Below are positions 3,514-15,528 of a stretch of DNA of 64,000 nucleotides, one piece after another (the stretch's first letter is position 1; each line of letters starts with the position of its first letter). The notes under the pieces were generated by a model. It did no database searches, was not told where the DNA came from, and was given only the letters and a program-made list of their open reading frames with translations. The DNA comes from Chthoniobacteraceae bacterium (GTDB lineage Bacteria > Verrucomicrobiota > Verrucomicrobiia > Chthoniobacterales > Chthoniobacteraceae). The position numbers were made by a program, and so were the translations under genes. The DNA is taken from assembly GCA_947479475.1 (NCBI GenBank), contig CANJZW010000011.1:1-64000 (forward strand), read 5' to 3'.

Positions 3514-5307
3514 ATGAATTTTAATTGTCCGACGTGCTCCATGCAGTTGATGGCGGATTCCCAAATGGCGGGACAATTAGTCAAGTGTCCGGGTTGTAAC
3601 TCCAAGCTGCAGGTGCCCGCGGGGTTTGAGGGAGATTCTCACAATGCCGGAGGGTCCGAACACGGAGGCTCTTCTGGCAGGAACCCCAGCCGGAATGTCT
3701 GGAAGGAGCAGGATCCGACCAATCCAAATTCGCTTCTGAGCGTTGGGATAGGGTTCGGGATTACCATCGTTTGGTTTGCGATCATTTATTTCTTCCAGGC
3801 GCCTGCGAGCAAGGTGTCCAGCGAGTTCACCACTGGGGAGACGCTGGCGAATCTGTTTTACAAGCACTTCACAGTCAGTTTTGCCAATACGTTGTTTTTC
3901 TGTTGGGCAGCGGCGATCTGTTATTTGAAGATGCTCAAACTCAAGCATCAGCGGCAGGCGATGCTTCTGGACGTGCTGCCCAGGGGTTTGGGGGAGCAGA
4001 TCAATGTTCAAAATGTGGGCACCTTTATTGACCATGTGTACGGGCTGCCGGAAACGCTTCGTGACAGTTTGATGGTCAACCGGATCCGCAAGGCCCTGGA
4101 GTTTTTCGAGAGCCGTCAGAACGTGGCGGATGTCAGTAGCCTGATGGGAAGCCAGTCAGCAATTGACGGATCCCGCATCATGGGGAGTTATATTCTGATC
4201 CGCGCCTTTTTGTGGGCGATCCCGTTGCTGGGATTTATCGGAACGGTGATCGGTCTCTCCCACGCGATCAGCGGCATGAGTTTCTCGAATGTGGAGGATG
4301 TCAGCAAGATCGTGGGATCCATTAACAACGTGACAAGCGGACTGGGGACGGCCTTCGACGCGACGCTTCTGGGGTTGGTCTTTGCAGTGGTGTTGAACTT
4401 CCCGTTGAATTCGCTGGCGAAGCACGAAGAAGAAGCGTTGAACGACATTGATGCCTTTTGTAACGAAGTCCTGTTGCCGCGGCTTGACGACGGTGCGTCC
4501 GGAGGTGCTCAGGACAGACAGAGTTCAGCCGCGAACGACATGGGGACTCTGGCCGAGGCGGTTGCCAGCGCCATTACGGCCTCACAGCGCGAATTTCTGG
4601 CCGATCTAAACACGCTTTCCGCGCGGATGTTGGATTACGCGAGCACCCTCGAGGGGCGCAACGAGCAATACCAGCAAGCCGCCTTGCAGCACCTCTCCGA
4701 ACAGGTTGGAGCCGTGGACGCCCGCACGCATGAGCATTTTGAAATGGTGCGCCAGCAGCAGGAAGGCGTCATGAACCATTTTTCCGCCAGTTTTGCGAGT
4801 TTGGAGCAGTCCAGCCGAGAGGCCTATGAGGCAATGGTGCACAGCCAGAACTCGGTGGTAAACCAGTTTACAGAAAAGGTCGGAGCCCTTTCGTCCGGGG
4901 TGGAGACCTTGGCGAAAAGCCAGATGGAGGCTGTGGCGGATCTCGCCCACAAGTTGGAATCGATGTCTGGCGGGGTCCAGAAGGCGTTATCTTCTTCGGT
5001 GGAGGCCAGCACTCGCGCGATGGTCGGAATGGGAGAACATCTCTCGAAGCTGGATCACAGCTCGAAAGATTACCAGCAGGCGGTGCATGCGGCGCAGCAG
5101 GAGGCAACCAAGCTCTTCGCTGACAAAATAGGGGTGATGTCTACCGGCTTGGGTGAATCGCTCCAATCCTCCGTGCAGTTGACTCAGAAAACGATTTCGG
5201 GAATCGAAGCCGGGATTGGAAGCCTGAATACGGTCTTGGAAAAGCTAAGCAAAGAGCAGGTTGTGGTGCAGCAGGTGCAGAAAAAAGGTTGGTTTGGGCG
5301 GAGTTAG
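3514..5307 (+). CDS. MotA/TolQ/ExbB-like channel with zinc ribbon and long C-terminal helical tail
   Basis: The 597-residue protein starts with a zinc ribbon (C5-x2-C8 and C25-x2-C28), then a Gly/Ser linker. Hydrophobic spans lie near 74-95, 118-140, 224-250 and 278-298. The last two carry PLLGFIGTVIGL and GLGTAFDATLLGLVFAV, hallmarks of the MotA/TolQ/ExbB stator family. Residues about 330-597 are predicted helical, Gln/Glu/Ser-rich and apparently coiled coil. It is the first gene of a three-gene operon (gaps of 51 and 17 bp) with two ExbD-like partners. Known relatives form pentamers around a dimer of single-span partners and conduct protons or sodium. The long cytoplasmic tail recalls ZorA, but no Zorya nuclease or helicase genes are present. 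Function is unknown. Confidence 0.82.
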   Translation: MNFNCPTCSMQLMADSQMAGQLVKCPGCNSKLQVPAGFEGDSHNAGGSEHGGSSGRNPSRNVWKEQDPTNPNSLLSVGIGFGITIVWFAIIYFFQAPASKVSSEFTTGETLANLFYKHFTVSFANTLFFCWAAAICYLKMLKLKHQRQAMLLDVLPRGLGEQINVQNVGTFIDHVYGLPETLRDSLMVNRIRKALEFFESRQNVADVSSLMGSQSAIDGSRIMGSYILIRAFLWAIPLLGFIGTVIGLSHAISGMSFSNVEDVSKIVGSINNVTSGLGTAFDATLLGLVFAVVLNFPLNSLAKHEEEALNDIDAFCNEVLLPRLDDGASGGAQDRQSSAANDMGTLAEAVASAITASQREFLADLNTLSARMLDYASTLEGRNEQYQQAALQHLSEQVGAVDARTHEHFEMVRQQQEGVMNHFSASFASLEQSSREAYEAMVHSQNSVVNQFTEKVGALSSGVETLAKSQMEAVADLAHKLESMSGGVQKALSSSVEASTRAMVGMGEHLSKLDHSSKDYQQAVHAAQQEATKLFADKIGVMSTGLGESLQSSVQLTQKTISGIEAGIGSLNTVLEKLSKEQVVVQQVQKKGWFGRS

Positions 5308-5358
5308 TCGGCGGCGCCTCGACGATCCCCCCTTTGACTCACGGAGCCCCCTGAAGCC

Positions 5359-6255
5359 ATGACCAGAAGACCCAGACACAAGGCAGACGAGATCATGATG
5401 ATCCCGTTTCTGGACATTCTTTGTTCGCTGATTGGCGTTCTCGTTCTCATCATCGTGGTGCTGGTGATTGCCCAGACCCAACGCATCAATGGCCGCACTC
5501 CCGAGGAGTTGCAACGGGCCCAGGAGTTCATCCGGATGCAAAAGATGCAGAAGGAGAATGCCATCAAATACAGCGGTCTGACAGACAAACTCGACAAGCT
5601 CACGAAAACTCAGGACGAAAGCCGGGCTAAAAAACTGGCTGCTGAAAAACTCAGCGAGATGCTCCGTCTTGCCGAGATGAATCAGGAAAAAAACAAGGAA
5701 TCCGCGAGCAAGCTCCAAAAAGAGCTGGAGGATCTCCTCGTGGAAATCCGGGGCCTGACGGCTCAGGATCCCGATTTGAAGGCGAAAATCGCGGAACTGC
5801 AGGCCGCCGTGGCCAAGCTTCAGGGGCCTGAGAACAAAGAACGCTCCGTCGTGGTCAACCCTCAGGGATCAGGACTGGCGGCGGGGTCGGTGATTTTCTT
5901 TGTGGATGCGGCGGGGGACAAGTTGACGTATTTCTGGAATGAAAAGGAAAAGGCCGTCGTCAGTGCGGTGCCGGAGGTGATCGTGGCGGATGCCGGGTTC
6001 AACGCGTTTCTGGAGGCCGTCAAGAAAGTGCCCCAGAGCAAGATTATCTTTCTGACCCGGGATGACGGGATGCGCTCTTACAACCTGGCGGCCGGTTGGG
6101 CGCAGTCCCAGTACAAATATCCAGTGGCGCAGCTTGGGAAGTTGCCAGTGCCCGGGCGCGGTGAGCTGGATATGAAATTGTTTGGAAATTTAGTCGGAAA
6201 ACTTCCGGCGCCTGCCCCCGAAAAACCAGCGCCGGGAGCGCCCCCTAAACCTTAG
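5359..6255 (+). CDS. ExbD/TolR-like single-span partner protein (first copy)
   Basis: The 298-residue protein has a short cytoplasmic N-terminus followed by one membrane span starting at IPFLDILCSLIGVLVLI. Asp19 sits where ExbD/TolR/MotB proteins keep the ion-carrying Asp. Residues about 45-160 are strongly helical and probably coiled coil (Lys/Glu/Gln-rich). A C-terminal globular domain (about 165-280) and a Pro/Ala-rich tail follow. It lies 51 bp after the ExbB-like gene and 17 bp before a second ExbD-like gene. The C-terminal domain does not show the OmpA-type peptidoglycan-binding pattern of MotB or ZorB. A role as stator partner is inferred from topology, the Asp and position. Confidence 0.7.
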   Translation: MTRRPRHKADEIMMIPFLDILCSLIGVLVLIIVVLVIAQTQRINGRTPEELQRAQEFIRMQKMQKENAIKYSGLTDKLDKLTKTQDESRAKKLAAEKLSEMLRLAEMNQEKNKESASKLQKELEDLLVEIRGLTAQDPDLKAKIAELQAAVAKLQGPENKERSVVVNPQGSGLAAGSVIFFVDAAGDKLTYFWNEKEKAVVSAVPEVIVADAGFNAFLEAVKKVPQSKIIFLTRDDGMRSYNLAAGWAQSQYKYPVAQLGKLPVPGRGELDMKLFGNLVGKLPAPAPEKPAPGAPPKP

Positions 6256-6272
6256 CCAGCTTTTTTCAAGTT

Positions 6273-7475
6273 ATGGCCCGCCGCTCAAAACCCCACGAGG
6301 AAGAACTTCCCTTTGTCGCCCTCATGGACACCATGACGAACGTCGTGGGGGTCCTGATTATTGTCCTCGTCATGATCGGGATCGGCCTGGCTAAGTCGGT
6401 GCAGAAGGTGCTCTCCGAATTACCGTCGGTGAGTGTCGAAGAACATGCGAAGCTCAAGGAGGAACTCGCCGCTTTTGACGCAAAGCGGGATCCGGCAGAG
6501 GTGGAGGCGGAAATTGCCAAACTGAAGGAGGAACTGGCCAAAGCGGCGGAGAAGTTAAAGACGCTGGAACTTCAGAAAGACAACAGTCCCACACCGATCG
6601 TTGATCTCGATAAGATGATGAAGGAGTTGGAAGCCGCCCGGAAGGAGCGGATGGAACGCAAGACCGCGATTGACCAATTGCTTGCGGAGATCGACAAGTT
6701 AAAGTTGAAGCTGGATACGACCCCACGCTTTGAGGCACAGCCTCCAGTGGTGGTGCGTTTGCCCAATGCCAAACCGATGCCCGAAAAAGCGGAGATCCAC
6801 CGGGTGCTTGTGAGCGAAAACCGGATCATGTTCCTGCAGAACCTACAGCTAGCCCAAGTGATCGAGGAGGAGCTCAAGAAGGATGGTTCGCCCTACACAC
6901 TCCGGCGTGAAACCTTGAAAGGGCCGGATGGAAAGCCGATCATGAAAAAAGGCCCCAGCGGCCTGCCGGTTCAGCAAAGAAAGACTTACTTTGACGGGGC
7001 CAAGATGGAGGTGTTCTTTAACGACCTTTTCAACAAACGCAAGGCGAGCAAACGCGATTTGAACCGGGATCTTTTGGTCAAAGTAGTCCAGATTCCAAAC
7101 TCTCCGACCGTTCAAATGAAGCTGGAGCCCAGGCCTGAAAGCGGCGAAACGGTGGCGCAAGCAATGCTCCAAACTTCCTTTTTTCGCTCCCAACTACGCG
7201 AGCTGAAAAAAGACCCGGATTCCGTGCTTTGGTTCCATGTCTGCAAGGATTCGATCCCCGCCTACTTGGGCGCCCGCGATATCGTCGATGCGACCGAGCA
7301 GCTTCCGGTGGGGTGGGAGATTTTTGACAGGCCGCTCTACACCCAAAATATGCCAGCGGACTTTCTGGTCGATTTCACCCCCGTGGTTGTCGCGCCAGCG
7401 GCCGCAGGAGCGGCAGTTAAGCCGCCAGGCCCCCCGCCCGTGGTGATCGCGGCGCCCAAGATGTCGGTGGATTGA
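6273..7475 (+). CDS. ExbD/TolR-like single-span partner protein (second copy)
   Basis: The 400-residue protein has the same layout as its upstream neighbour: N-terminal span LPFVALMDTMTNVVGVLIIV with Asp19 and the Gly26-Val-Leu also present in the first copy, then a coiled coil (about 50-160), a globular domain (about 170-350) and a Pro/Ala-rich end. The shared Asp19 spacing suggests the two are paralogous partners of one channel, possibly a heterodimer. A 17 bp gap implies co-transcription. After the stop, the operon runs into a convergent oxidoreductase gene; the 63 bp between holds an imperfect hairpin (about 7490-7521) without a T-run. Function unknown. Confidence 0.68.
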   Translation: MARRSKPHEEELPFVALMDTMTNVVGVLIIVLVMIGIGLAKSVQKVLSELPSVSVEEHAKLKEELAAFDAKRDPAEVEAEIAKLKEELAKAAEKLKTLELQKDNSPTPIVDLDKMMKELEAARKERMERKTAIDQLLAEIDKLKLKLDTTPRFEAQPPVVVRLPNAKPMPEKAEIHRVLVSENRIMFLQNLQLAQVIEEELKKDGSPYTLRRETLKGPDGKPIMKKGPSGLPVQQRKTYFDGAKMEVFFNDLFNKRKASKRDLNRDLLVKVVQIPNSPTVQMKLEPRPESGETVAQAMLQTSFFRSQLRELKKDPDSVLWFHVCKDSIPAYLGARDIVDATEQLPVGWEIFDRPLYTQNMPADFLVDFTPVVVAPAAAGAAVKPPGPPPVVIAAPKMSVD

Positions 7476-10170: not shown

Positions 10171-10290
10171 TTAGCCTCGTTTCGGCGCAGAAATTGCTTT
10201 TAGAAAGAATGTATTCTGCCGCTGCCGAGCGATAGCAAATGAAGCTGTTAGGTGGTTTGGCTGTTTGGTGTCCCCCTTTTTCTTATTTCG

Positions 10291-13200
10291 ATGCATACCC
10301 TCTGTCGAATTCTCGTTTCGGTTAGGCCGCTGCTCCTGGGAGTGCTGCTCTGCTCGACTCTGTTCGGGGGGGTAAGCTCCTTTACAGGAACGCTGTTCGC
10401 GGAAGGAGTCTCTGTCCTTCCCGTTATTCAGACGCAACCTGAGTCGCAGACTGTCGGCGTGGGGGCAGCGGAGGTCATTCTGCGCGTGACGGCTAATAGC
10501 ACGGCCGCTCTGACTTACCAGTGGAGGAAGGGGGGCGTTTCTATCGTCGGTGGGACGGCGGCCAGCTACCGCATCGCCCCCGTTTATGTCACCGATGCGG
10601 GTAGATACGACGTCATTGTGACTAATTCTGCCGTACCTTCCAGCACCAGCAGCAGTGTTGCCACGCTGACAGTGCTTTCTCCCCCCACGATCACCGTCCA
10701 ACCCTCAAATGTGAGGGTTGTCCAGGGCAATGATGCAAAGTTGAGTGTGACGACTTCCGGCACAGGGCTCACCTACCAGTGGTTTAAGTCGTCTGCCGAC
10801 TCGGATTCCAAAGAGCTGATACCTGGGGCTACGGCTGCGGTTTACGTGGTGCCTGCGGACCAGATTGTCAGTGGGACGTTTTATGGGGTGGATGTCAGCA
10901 ACGGCCCCTTCTCTCTGACCAGCACGCGTGCTTCGGTCCTCGTAGGGGCGCGGCCCGTGATCAACGATCCGCAACCGGAGGGAGTCACTGCGGCGCCTGG
11001 CGGTTCTGCCACCTTTAGGGTTTTTGCAGTTGGGGGTGTGGGTGTGACTTATCAATGGAGGAAAGCGGGTGTGAATATCACGGGGGGAACCGCTTCGAGT
11101 TTTTCGATCCCCGCTGTCGCTTCGGGCAATGCCGGCGTTTATGACGTGGTGGTCTCGAATGGATTTGGAAGCGTGACGAGCGAACCCGCGGTGCTGGAAG
11201 TCGCTTCGGCCCCCAGTATTACTTTGCAACCCAACGCGGTGAGCGTGGGCGCCGGTGGTCTTGTCGTTTTGGAAGTCGGCGTCGCGGGCACCGGTCCCCT
11301 CAGTTACCGTTGGTTCAAGGCGAGCGGCGCAGGCTCGAGGGTGGAGATTCAAGGGGCTACGTCTGGGGTATATCAAATTTCCGGGGCCCAAGTCGGCGAT
11401 GGGGGATCCTACACTGTGGATGTCACCAATATCGCCGGGACGGTGAGCAGCGCGCCCATTGCTCTGACCGTGATTGCGGCGGGCGGCGTTGTGATTAATG
11501 AACAGCCTTTGGGCGGTAGTGTCCTCCTTGGAAGCCCTTACGCATTCAGCGTTGGAGTCGGTGATACAGCCCCGGTTTCTTATCAGTGGAGGAAGGGTGG
11601 CGTTCCCATCACGGGCGCGACGGCGTCCACCTACGCCCTCGCCGCCGTGCAGACCGCCGATGTGGGGTGTTATGACGTCCTCGTCCGGAATGCGGCTGGT
11701 GTCGTGAATAGCGTCCCTGCGTTTCTGGGGCTTGCCTCAGCCGTTTCACTGGAGCCCTACCAGTGGACGACGCTGGCAGGATCCCCGGGAGTTTCGGGGA
11801 CGGCGGACGGTTCCGGAGGAGACGCGCGTTTCAATGTGCCCGTCGGGATCGCCTTGAGCGCCTCAGGCACTTTGTATGTGAGCGATTCTGAAAACAGCGT
11901 CATCCGAAAGGTGACCGCTGGCGGGGTGGTGACAACGTTTGCCGGTGTGATGGGAACTCCGGGAATCCTTGACGGAGCGGCGCTTACCGCTCGGTTCGAT
12001 TCCCCGCAAGGGATCGCTCTCGATCCATCGGGCAATCTTTTCGTGGCGGATTCGAACAACAATGTCGTACGAAAGATCAGCGCACAGGGCCAGGTGACGA
12101 CTTTGGGAGTCGCCTTCGACGGCCCGCGGCGCGTTGCGGTTGACCCCAGCGGGAACCTCTATGTTCTGGACAACTTCACGCTTCAGAAAGTGAGCCCCAA
12201 CGGGACCGCTACCGTTCTCATGGGGGATACTCTGGGCACCGCGGTCTTCTTTCCTCAGGGCATGGCGGTGGATAAAAACGGCCGCTTGTTTGTCGCAGCC
12301 TTCGACGGAGCGGTGGTTCACATTCTCAAACGCAGCGATGCTGGCATCTTTGTGGACACGGGGTTTGGTCCGTACGATTTTGAGCTGGCGGACTTAACCT
12401 TTGGCCTAGGCGGCAATTTGTATGCCGCTTCCGGCAATTCAGTGTTTTTTTTAGGAGACACTGCCAGTACGGCGAATCCACCCGAAGGGCTGCCAGTCAG
12501 TTTGATGGACTTGGACGCCAGTCAGATTTATCCGAGGGCCATTGCCGTGAGCGATTCGGGGACCATTTTCGGGGTGGATCCCTTCAATTTCATGGTGCTT
12601 CGAGGCGCTGTCGTAGTTGGTTTGCCCGCCCTTTTGTCACAGCCTGTCTCTGCGGCGAACTCACCTTTGGCTTTGAGAATCTGGGCCGAGGGGGAGGGGT
12701 TGACCTATCAGTGGCTTTATAGGGATGCGCCTATCACTGGGGCCAATGCGCAGGAATTAAAGATCCCTGCCGCGCAGTTGTCCAATCCAGGGAATTTCAA
12801 GGTGATTGTCAGCAACGCGGCGGGTTCGGTCACCAGTCTTCCCGCAACATTCACAGGAGTCGGGCCTCTTTTTATCAGTTCGCATCCATCCAACAGGGTG
12901 GCCACCTCTGGGGATGCGGTCTCTTTTGAGGTGGGTGTCACCGGGCAAGCTCCGTTCACCTATCAGTGGCGCAAGGGAGGGGTGGCGATTTCTGGAGGAA
13001 CTGGCGCCACTTACACGATCACTGGGGCTAAGATCATCGATAGCGGAAGCTACGATGTGGTGGTGAAGAGTCCCACAAATGCGACAGGAGTCACTTCCCG
13101 GGCGGCTCTCTTGCAGGTAAACGTGCCTGCCGTGCCCGCCCAGGTTTTCAGTCAACCCGAAAGCCTCGAACTCGTCCTTGGGGCTAGGGCGACCTTTAAC

Positions 13201-15528
13201 GTCGCGGCTTCAGGGACCGCGCCAATCACCTACCAGTGGAAAAAAGGCGTGAGCGAAATCCCAGGCGCCACCCTGCCCTCCTATTCAATTGCCGCGGTCG
13301 GATCTGGAGACGTGGGAGACTATTCCGTGGTGGTTGCGAATATCGCCGGTTTCGAGTCGAGCGACATTGCGAAACTTTCCGTTTGTACTCCCGTGAGTAT
13401 TCTTGCCTCGCCGCAGGGAAGTTCGGTGCGCGAGGGGAACCCGGTGACCCTGACCGTTGGATTTGCGGGCACGAATCCCAGTTTTCAGTGGCGCAAGGGG
13501 GGGCGGCCAATTTCTGGCGGGACTTCCTCCAGCTATACAATCTCTTCCGTCAAAGCCGCGGATGCCGATTCCTACGATGTGGTGGTCTCCAACAGCGTAA
13601 ATACGGTCCCCAGCTCCACAGCCTCGTTGGTAGTGGAGACGCCCGTGGATATCCTCACGCAGCCTGCGAGTATCGCCGCAACCGTGGGCGTACGGATTGC
13701 TTTCAGCGTGACGGCGACGGGCACCAGCCCGAGTTACCAGTGGCGTAAAAACGGAACGCAAATTCCTGGGGAAACCAAGCCGATCCTTGTGCTGACCTCC
13801 CCGGCTGAGATCATCGATGCGGGCACTTACGACGTTGTTGTTTTTAACGCGTTCAGCCAAAAGACCAGCGCCGCTGCAACGCTCACCATCGCCCCGGGAC
13901 GGGGAATCTCGATTCTGCAATCCCCTCCCGCCATGGTCTATTGCATTCAGGGCACGAATGCCATGCTCGAGTTGGCGGTTGATCCCTTGGGAGAAGAAAT
14001 GCTCAGGACGACCTTCCGCCTGCTGAGCACCTCCGGCGATTTCACCGGCATTGCGGGCACGGTGCCTGATAACGGGGTGTTTTTAGTGCCGCTGAAGGCG
14101 CTCGTGACCGCGGGCACCTATCGCGTTGAAATTGCGAGAGAGTATAAGGCCGGGGCCGCCATTCCTCCAGTGAACACCGCGCCATTTCAGGTCTCTTTCA
14201 AGGGACTCGACAAGGCTGCGGGCTCGTATGAGATTTTGCTCGAAGACGTCAACGGCCTGCTCGGGGATTCAGCAACCTACAGGGGGCTCCTTGTCGCTAC
14301 CGTGAGTAAAACGGGCGCTGTGTCCGGACGGGTAATTTACAATGAAGCAACGGCTTTGGCGCCGCTCGTGGATGCGAGTCTCCGAACCTATATGCCGGTC
14401 ACCCGTTCTTTTAACGGCACCTTTTCCCCCTCTGAGGAGGATGCACTCAAACTGGTGTGTGTGCCGAAAACAGGGGCTCTGGCTCCAAACAACAGCCAGG
14501 AGTTGCGGATGGAGTTGGATTTTTCCGGGGCCGCTCCCCAGCTTAATGCTTTTGTAAAGGATAGAGCTTCTCTTCCCGGTGACGAAGACGGCGTGTTGAG
14601 TGCGGCGGTGGGAGGAGGGCAACTGCTGACGAAGATAAGTACGGATATGGCTGGCGTAGTGGCACGGTACACCCTCTCAACGGACTCGAGCCTCTCTCAG
14701 GACAGCGGACCGGGGAGTGATAACAACGCTTATATCCTGATCCAGGTTCTGTCCACCGGGCGAGTTTTGTGGACAAGCCGGCAGAGCGCCTCTGCAGGCA
14801 GCGGGTCGGCGGGACTCAGTTTGCAGGCAGACTCCACACTGGTTGCGCAATTTTACGAAGGCCGTTCTCTTTCGCCAACGGCGTTCCATTCGTCGACAAG
14901 CCTTTTTGGGTGTCTCTTTTTTACAAAGACTGGAGCTGTATGGGCGCCTTCGCTCTCAGCTGGGTATTGGGACGGCAGGCTTGAGAGACAGTCGAGTTAC
15001 ATTTCCAAATTCAACAAAAAGGTGAACTATGACAGCCTCAAATTTGACTTGGGAAGTGCCTTTAGCGCCGCCTTCAATTGGACGGGCGTCACGTTGCTGG
15101 ATTTTGGCGGCGGGGCCTGCCTCTGGAATGGAACGGCCCAAGGCTGGCTCAAGTTTTTTGGCGATTCGAGCGTTACGGCTCCGGTCCTTACGGCTCCGGT
15201 CCTTTATCTGACGGCAGAAGACCCCGCGGGGGAGGGCGGCGTCTTTATCTGGAGCCTGACCCTTTCGAGTGCAGGCGTTATCAAGACAGCGACTTACTCT
15301 CCGGGAGGTTCCCTGCAACCGGCTTTAAGTCTGCGTCTGGATCGTACAAAGGGCGAATGGACCGGTTCCTATCTCCCCTCAAATAGCAAAATTCGAAGGA
15401 ACCTGGTGGGCGCCTCTGTTTCGCCTCAGGACGCCGCCGACCCTCTCCGTGCGCAGGGTTGGGTGGAGTTGGGTGTTTTGCCAGCCATCCGGACGACGGC
15501 CTGGAAACTAGAAAACACGCCGCCGTAG
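10291..15528 (+). CDS. Giant secreted protein with ten Ig-like repeats and an inserted NHL-type propeller
   Basis: The 1745-residue protein has an N-terminal signal peptide (VRPLLLGVLLCSTLFGG). Ten Ig-like modules can be counted by their YQWRKGG-type core and YDVVVSN-type end: five before and five after an inserted NHL-repeat region (about residues 485-780) recognised by LDPSGNLFVADSNNNVVRKI-like units. The last 500 residues are not recognised. ATG 10291 is chosen over GTG 10252 because it places the signal peptide at the N-terminus. Such proteins in Verrucomicrobiota are surface or secreted and may bind ligands or cells; this is inference. No PEP-CTERM or sortase motif is seen at the C-terminus (it ends KLENTPP), so the anchoring or release mechanism is unclear. 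Confidence 0.85.
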   Translation: MHTLCRILVSVRPLLLGVLLCSTLFGGVSSFTGTLFAEGVSVLPVIQTQPESQTVGVGAAEVILRVTANSTAALTYQWRKGGVSIVGGTAASYRIAPVYVTDAGRYDVIVTNSAVPSSTSSSVATLTVLSPPTITVQPSNVRVVQGNDAKLSVTTSGTGLTYQWFKSSADSDSKELIPGATAAVYVVPADQIVSGTFYGVDVSNGPFSLTSTRASVLVGARPVINDPQPEGVTAAPGGSATFRVFAVGGVGVTYQWRKAGVNITGGTASSFSIPAVASGNAGVYDVVVSNGFGSVTSEPAVLEVASAPSITLQPNAVSVGAGGLVVLEVGVAGTGPLSYRWFKASGAGSRVEIQGATSGVYQISGAQVGDGGSYTVDVTNIAGTVSSAPIALTVIAAGGVVINEQPLGGSVLLGSPYAFSVGVGDTAPVSYQWRKGGVPITGATASTYALAAVQTADVGCYDVLVRNAAGVVNSVPAFLGLASAVSLEPYQWTTLAGSPGVSGTADGSGGDARFNVPVGIALSASGTLYVSDSENSVIRKVTAGGVVTTFAGVMGTPGILDGAALTARFDSPQGIALDPSGNLFVADSNNNVVRKISAQGQVTTLGVAFDGPRRVAVDPSGNLYVLDNFTLQKVSPNGTATVLMGDTLGTAVFFPQGMAVDKNGRLFVAAFDGAVVHILKRSDAGIFVDTGFGPYDFELADLTFGLGGNLYAASGNSVFFLGDTASTANPPEGLPVSLMDLDASQIYPRAIAVSDSGTIFGVDPFNFMVLRGAVVVGLPALLSQPVSAANSPLALRIWAEGEGLTYQWLYRDAPITGANAQELKIPAAQLSNPGNFKVIVSNAAGSVTSLPATFTGVGPLFISSHPSNRVATSGDAVSFEVGVTGQAPFTYQWRKGGVAISGGTGATYTITGAKIIDSGSYDVVVKSPTNATGVTSRAALLQVNVPAVPAQVFSQPESLELVLGARATFNVAASGTAPITYQWKKGVSEIPGATLPSYSIAAVGSGDVGDYSVVVANIAGFESSDIAKLSVCTPVSILASPQGSSVREGNPVTLTVGFAGTNPSFQWRKGGRPISGGTSSSYTISSVKAADADSYDVVVSNSVNTVPSSTASLVVETPVDILTQPASIAATVGVRIAFSVTATGTSPSYQWRKNGTQIPGETKPILVLTSPAEIIDAGTYDVVVFNAFSQKTSAAATLTIAPGRGISILQSPPAMVYCIQGTNAMLELAVDPLGEEMLRTTFRLLSTSGDFTGIAGTVPDNGVFLVPLKALVTAGTYRVEIAREYKAGAAIPPVNTAPFQVSFKGLDKAAGSYEILLEDVNGLLGDSATYRGLLVATVSKTGAVSGRVIYNEATALAPLVDASLRTYMPVTRSFNGTFSPSEEDALKLVCVPKTGALAPNNSQELRMELDFSGAAPQLNAFVKDRASLPGDEDGVLSAAVGGGQLLTKISTDMAGVVARYTLSTDSSLSQDSGPGSDNNAYILIQVLSTGRVLWTSRQSASAGSGSAGLSLQADSTLVAQFYEGRSLSPTAFHSSTSLFGCLFFTKTGAVWAPSLSAGYWDGRLERQSSYISKFNKKVNYDSLKFDLGSAFSAAFNWTGVTLLDFGGGACLWNGTAQGWLKFFGDSSVTAPVLTAPVLYLTAEDPAGEGGVFIWSLTLSSAGVIKTATYSPGGSLQPALSLRLDRTKGEWTGSYLPSNSKIRRNLVGASVSPQDAADPLRAQGWVELGVLPAIRTTAWKLENTPP

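Follow-up and report, generated by a model that had tools for sequence, protein, structure and literature searches.

The ion-driven motors MotAB, ExbBD and TolQR each build both of their axle chains from one gene, so the two chains are hard to mutate separately. A central question for rotary models of these systems is if the aspartates of both axle chains are required and if the chains are equivalent. The arrangement of one channel gene with two axle genes is already known and is not itself new. It has been described in exbB-exbD1-exbD2 clusters (PMC3551730) and in the AglRQ/S system of Myxococcus, where the channel gene is accompanied by two different axle genes, each with a predicted transmembrane (TM) aspartate (PMC9389320). 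Zorya ZorAB combines a MotA-like channel, which has a long helical cytoplasmic C-terminal tail, with a single-span partner carrying a TM aspartate, and the tail of ZorA is essential for defense (PMC11890865). In a survey of the superfamily, the non-flagellar members were found to be greatly diverse, with both N- and C-terminal extensions (PMC12505986).

The window analyzed here, a stretch of 64,000 nucleotides from a Chthoniobacteraceae bacterium, contains an operon of one channel gene and two axle genes, termed A, B and C, which apparently represents a motor family of Verrucomicrobiota that has not yet been described. No description of the trio was found in the open-license literature and, given the breadth of the superfamily survey (PMC12505986), single members are possibly included there without comment.

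Operon organization and the channel protein

The three genes and all of their parts described below lie on the forward strand. Gene A, encoding the channel subunit (3514-5307, 597 aa), is followed after 51 nt by gene B for the first axle partner (5359-6255, 298 aa), and this after 17 nt by gene C for the second (6273-7475, 400 aa), which makes for a tight operon and agrees in all three cases with the positions given by an earlier sequence-only reading. Profile searches recover A-B-C in the same order and mostly with short gaps at 38 loci including the window, a set that holds a few genomes twice (e.g. L038 and L075 are identical), and because the trio is kept in this way, chance or frameshifted ORFs were rejected as an explanation. 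In the source genome of 5.07 Mb, assembled in 214 contigs, there are nine PF01618 channels, including a likely flagellar MotA, and nine PF02472 ExbD genes, which are all located elsewhere and do not include B or C.

Protein A belongs to the channel superfamily, with residues 199-310 matching PF01618 (MotA_ExbB) at 38.9 bits against a cut-off of 22.9. Hydropathy predicts two TM helices upstream of the channel domain and two inside it, that is, a MotA-like four-helix topology. The segment with TM1 (residues ~73-101) and TM2 (~120-141) at 3730-3936 includes H118 and N125, and the pore helices TM3 and TM4 (~227-297; 4192-4404) include A231 and A283, all of which are specific to one of the two types of the system described below. 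The pore helices also contain T244 and T284, which are present in 42 of 42 group I sequences, the group to which the window belongs, and whose positions in the alignment correspond to the pore threonines of TolQ.

Two further parts of A had been proposed from the sequence alone, and both stand. The N-terminal zinc ribbon (residues 1-36; 3514-3621), for which weak LysW/MJ0042-type matches are found, retains its cysteines C5, C8, C25 and C28 in all 41 relatives that cover this end of the protein, and the helical tail, put earlier at about 270 residues and predicted to be cytoplasmic, measures 273 (4486-5304). The tail terminates in a conserved tip (5248-5304, consensus KKKGWFSR), with F594 present in 38/42 and W593 in 30/42 group I sequences. 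Among the relatives the length of the tail varies from 122 to 571 residues, mostly 122-135, with some of 165-175, others of 221-273 including the window, and 564-571 in L038/L075 and L083. In L038, a same-genus relative with a tail of 571 residues, a 306-bp tandem repeat (L038:3786-4442) lies inside the tail, and the tail seems to have grown by units of 102 aa.

With curated models A remains under the cut-offs for TolQ (19.4 vs 221 bits), MotA, ExbB and ZorA (33.3 vs 500 bits and 24.6 vs 100 bits for two models), in line with the earlier view that the locus does not exactly fit Tol, Exb, Mot or Zorya. Matches to ZorA below the cut-off are found in 23 of 24 A members, and the exbB2 model matches one of the 24 (E 0.0048).

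The axle partners

B and C are paralogous to each other (hhalign probability 99.1, E 1e-18), and in their AlphaFold models, with mean pLDDT values of 75.5 and 73.4, respectively, one TM helix is followed by a helical stalk of ~100 residues and this by a C-terminal domain. In B, the single TM helix comprises residues 15-44 (5401-5490) with D19 at 5413-5415, the long periplasmic stalk residues 48-154 (5500-5820) and the C-terminal beta-alpha domain residues ~178-279 (5890-6195). The corresponding parts of C are a single TM helix at residues 13-49 (6309-6419) with D19 at 6327-6329 and the type-specific V15, a periplasmic stalk at residues 55-148 (6435-6716) and a mixed C-terminal domain at residues ~174-367 (6792-7373). 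To our knowledge, AglRQ/S lacks a zinc ribbon and a long tail, and AglQ and AglS are without long stalks such as those of B and C.

Both partners in the window share D19 and the G26-V-L motif, as had been read from the sequence, but D19 in both is a trait of the window's clade and does not extend to the whole family, since among 39 B proteins 27 have Asp and 12 have Ser at position 19. In C, D19 is Asp in 38 of 38 proteins, and together with the PF01618 match of A and its invariant threonines this upholds the earlier recognition of the core of an ion-driven motor.

When the two models were queried separately against 350,542 PDB chains, the highest-probability match of B was the periplasmic domain of E. 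coli TolR (5by4; probability 0.95, E 0.015), and the same TolR structure was ranked first for C (E 0.12). Both matches are weak, and the point is rather that the two predicted models agree independently on what would be a TolR-like fold. Among 22 B and 22 C proteins, no Pfam family is matched beyond weak, mostly coiled-coil hits, with none to ExbD PF02472 and none to an OmpA-type peptidoglycan-binding domain. A comparison of the B and C profiles with the ExbD proteins of the source genome was not significant, and the sequences of B and C retrieve mainly coiled-coil matches from the PDB. The earlier statement that there is no peptidoglycan-binding partner is not warranted, because the C-terminal domains of the two axle proteins resemble the periplasmic domain of TolR, and a truncated form of E. 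coli TolR binds peptidoglycan (PMC4646322). The periplasmic domain of C carries an insertion of ~130 residues in L047, L049-L051, L053, L054, L079, L081 and L082, which is common to Verrucomicrobiaceae systems of both ion-path types.

Distribution and gene neighborhood

A scan of genome contigs with A yielded 23 loci, all in Verrucomicrobiota, and a class-wide search added members. Group I A is present in 20 of 236 sampled genomes of the class, accompanied by B in 19/20 and C in 20/20, and in the one genome without B (G012) the A gene is cut off by the end of its contig. With the 38 ordered loci, these counts answer in the affirmative the question, raised by the sequence-only reading, of whether the three genes co-occur. 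Outside the class but within the same phylum, the trio is complete in L113 and cut by the contig in L118. In genome G205 (L077, L127) an A-B pair has no C next to it, and a C is found close to the end of a different contig, which may be either a second operon cut by assembly or a truly split system.

In several lineages the trio is surrounded by housekeeping genes. In some Verrucomicrobiaceae it lies after ribBA-ribH-nusB, with ftsY in addition in L048-L051, and in others after plsY-gpsA; a defense-island reading was rejected on account of such surroundings in several lineages. Across the trio loci no neighboring gene is constant, and no TonB, Pal, OmpA-type, motility or defense gene recurs, nor do ZorC/D or ZorE. 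In keeping with the absence of a TonB or Pal partner noted earlier for the window, none is fixed beside its homologues, and the neighboring genes, likewise inspected for effectors, include no recurrent one.

Coordinated changes of intramembrane residues

In group I, 40 trios are complete (39 of them different), and they fall into a D-type, in which Asp at position 19 of B is found with Val at position 15 of C (26 trios), and an S-type, in which Ser in B is found with Asp at C15 (14 trios), with zero exceptions. With residues denoted by protein and position, B19, C15, C16, A118, A125, A231 and A283 switch together in 40/40 rows. The fixed differences between the types comprise A118 (H/R), A120, A125 (N/E), A231 (A/V or I) and A283 (A/T) in the channel, the last of which adjoins the pore threonine T284, and B13, B15, B19, C13-16 and C36 in the partners. 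They are located largely in or near membrane segments, and those in the gappy columns of the A tail rest on few rows.

Three points bear on the composition of the axle. First, the S-type C has aspartates at both C15 and C19, and therefore the axle keeps two acids, both on C and one turn apart. Next, a homodimer of the S-type B, which is without the aspartate, could not serve as a classical axle, and such a chain would make sense in an axle only beside C, which favors a mixed axle. Finally, since intramembrane residues of A, B and C switch as a set, the three proteins most likely have one ion path in common, and the co-switching seen in the alignments supports a single A-B-C complex with a putative heterodimeric axle. 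In the D-type systems, B and C might conceivably belong to two separate motors that share A.

Conflicting trees of the membrane and periplasmic parts

In the tree that includes ZorA-like outgroups, group I A is a clade of 45 rows with a support of 0.99 that adjoins groups III, II and IV. Because the pore region of these outgroups is poorly aligned, nothing beyond the monophyly of group I is drawn from that tree. Among the FastTree and quick trees, that of the A channel core needs one change between D- and S-type, and the combined tree of the B and C periplasmic parts needs four and places L079 (D-type) together with L081 and L082 (both S-type) with a support of 100. These three systems are of one genus by taxonomy codes and all lie behind ribBA-ribH-nusB. 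The channel core rejects their grouping (AU p 2.3e-7) and the periplasmic parts reject a D-type clade (AU p 1.35e-62), both values being optimistic because the tested clades were picked after the trees had been seen.

The identities of individual segments follow the same division. L079 and L081 have a zinc ribbon that is 100% identical and C-terminal domains that are 75-80% identical, but the values drop to 48% for TM1-2, 56% for B 1-45 and 46% for C 1-42; between L079 and the D-type L049, which is outside that genus clade, they are 81% in TM1-2, 84% in B 1-45 and 80% in C 1-42. These values and the conflicting trees thus indicate that the membrane parts of the three genes have moved or changed together, either by exchange or by parallel change, and the significant conflict between the channel and periplasmic trees that the intramembrane module changes as a unit. 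Synonymous sites are saturated, so that recombination and parallel change are not distinguishable. A contig artefact behind the mosaic was rejected, as L079 lies within a contig of 886 kb. The periplasmic tree has three independent D/S contrasts on well-supported branches, which all agree and are too few for a sign test. As judged from the sequences, the D- and S-type are not merely two old lineages.

Discussion

We consider it reasonably probable that the three proteins together make up a single ion-driven motor of the 5:2 class, in which a ring of A would surround an axle of one B and one C; the 5:1:1 composition, the rotation, the driving ion, the peptidoglycan anchor and the cytoplasmic output of this motor are what we infer. 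Ions would pass through the A ring along T244 and T284, and the Asp residues at the base of the axle helices would be loaded and then released, causing the ring and the axle to turn against each other. On the periplasmic side, the B:C axle would be prolonged by a helical stalk with the two TolR-like domains at its end. These domains could be anchors because truncated TolR binds peptidoglycan (PMC4646322), and they are probably attached to peptidoglycan or to an envelope partner encoded elsewhere. The zinc ribbon and the long tail of A with its conserved tip are predicted to face the cytoplasm and, as in ZorA, would be the likelier output or docking side; neither an effector nor a rotor was identified for the tail. 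A more far-reaching version, which we put forward tentatively and with slightly less than even confidence, is that of a motor family with an obligatory heterodimeric axle that has switched more than once in evolution between two intramembrane chemistries, one with Asp on both helices and the other with acids at C15 and C19 and a B without Asp. The channel and both axle helices would then be exchangeable as a single module, and the parts in the cytoplasm and periplasm would be retained.

It is also conceivable, if rather unlikely, that the trio is an envelope energizer of the Tol/Exb kind, an outward-working motor whose TolR-like domains would drive either a target in the outer membrane or a TonB- or TolA-like protein encoded elsewhere in the genome. 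The trio shares with TolQR and ExbBD, including the exbD1-exbD2 clusters (PMC3551730), the positions of the pore threonines and of the axle aspartate and, as far as the weak matches of both B and C suggest, a TolR-like periplasmic fold, and its core chromosomal surroundings in several lineages are consistent with such a role. However, A has a predicted MotA-like four-helix topology and scores under the TolQ and ExbB cut-offs, the Pfam ExbD family misses all 22 B and 22 C members, nine ordinary ExbD genes are found elsewhere in the genome, no TolA, Pal or TonB gene is fixed beside the trio, and the zinc ribbon and tail of A would be left unexplained.

A stand-alone Zorya-like anti-phage motor, which would sense envelope damage and signal through the tail, appears distinctly improbable. 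The MotA-like channel with its long helical tail and the single-span partners with a TM aspartate do resemble ZorAB, which was the nearest outgroup used in the weakly resolved A tree, and the sub-cut-off ZorA matches and the presence of group II cousins in DO-GTPase/GAP1-N2 conflict operons point in the same direction. In contrast to Zorya, the trio has two different partners, neither with an OmpA-type domain, an added zinc ribbon and a highly variable tail length, and there is no ZorC/D/E or other constant effector beside it; moreover, the ZorA scores are far under the curated cut-offs, and the conserved housekeeping context in several lineages is not that of a variable island. The trio is Zorya-like in its tail, yet it is not Zorya. 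A motor for gliding or surface-polymer transport is very improbable, for although AglR and its two different MotB-like partners have the closest published gene make-up (PMC9389320), which the trio matches with its paralogous and strictly co-occurring B and C, AglRQ/S is tied to gliding and sporulation machinery and Glt/Nfs-like neighbors are not recurrent in the trio loci.

The preferred A-B-C motor is of interest beyond its own family, as its separate axle genes and the S-type systems, with the canonical Asp in one chain and matching changes in the channel, provide a natural test of ion use. In addition, its group II cousins are wired into GTPase conflict operons. The group II loci (L056-L063 and L119-L130, e.g. 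L121:1301-12502) have a homologous channel and two axle genes in the same A-B-C order, with Asp in both partners. Unlike in group I, their A is ~300 aa long, without zinc ribbon or tail, and is embedded in an operon with FHA-DO-GTPase2, GAP1-N2/GAP1-M, a ~1040-aa protein, and GYF-type and vWA genes; the terms MotA, TolQ and proton channel are absent from the text that describes the GTPase conflict systems (PMC7159879).

In group III (L061, L064-L069) a channel of ~570 aa is found with partners of 165 aa (Ser) and ~212 aa (Asp), the residue being Ser or another in B and Asp in C across the group, and the trio is followed by a ~341-aa gene without a Pfam match and then by a HEAT-repeat protein. 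Group IV (L070-L074) has a channel of ~300 aa and two partners that carry the motif FLDCICCGFGA, with Asp in both, and in two loci a conserved ~486-aa gene without a Pfam match lies in between. Elsewhere in the window, positions 10252-15528 hold an ORF of 1758 aa, in which repeated Ig-like segments and NHL-like repeats can be recognized by eye.
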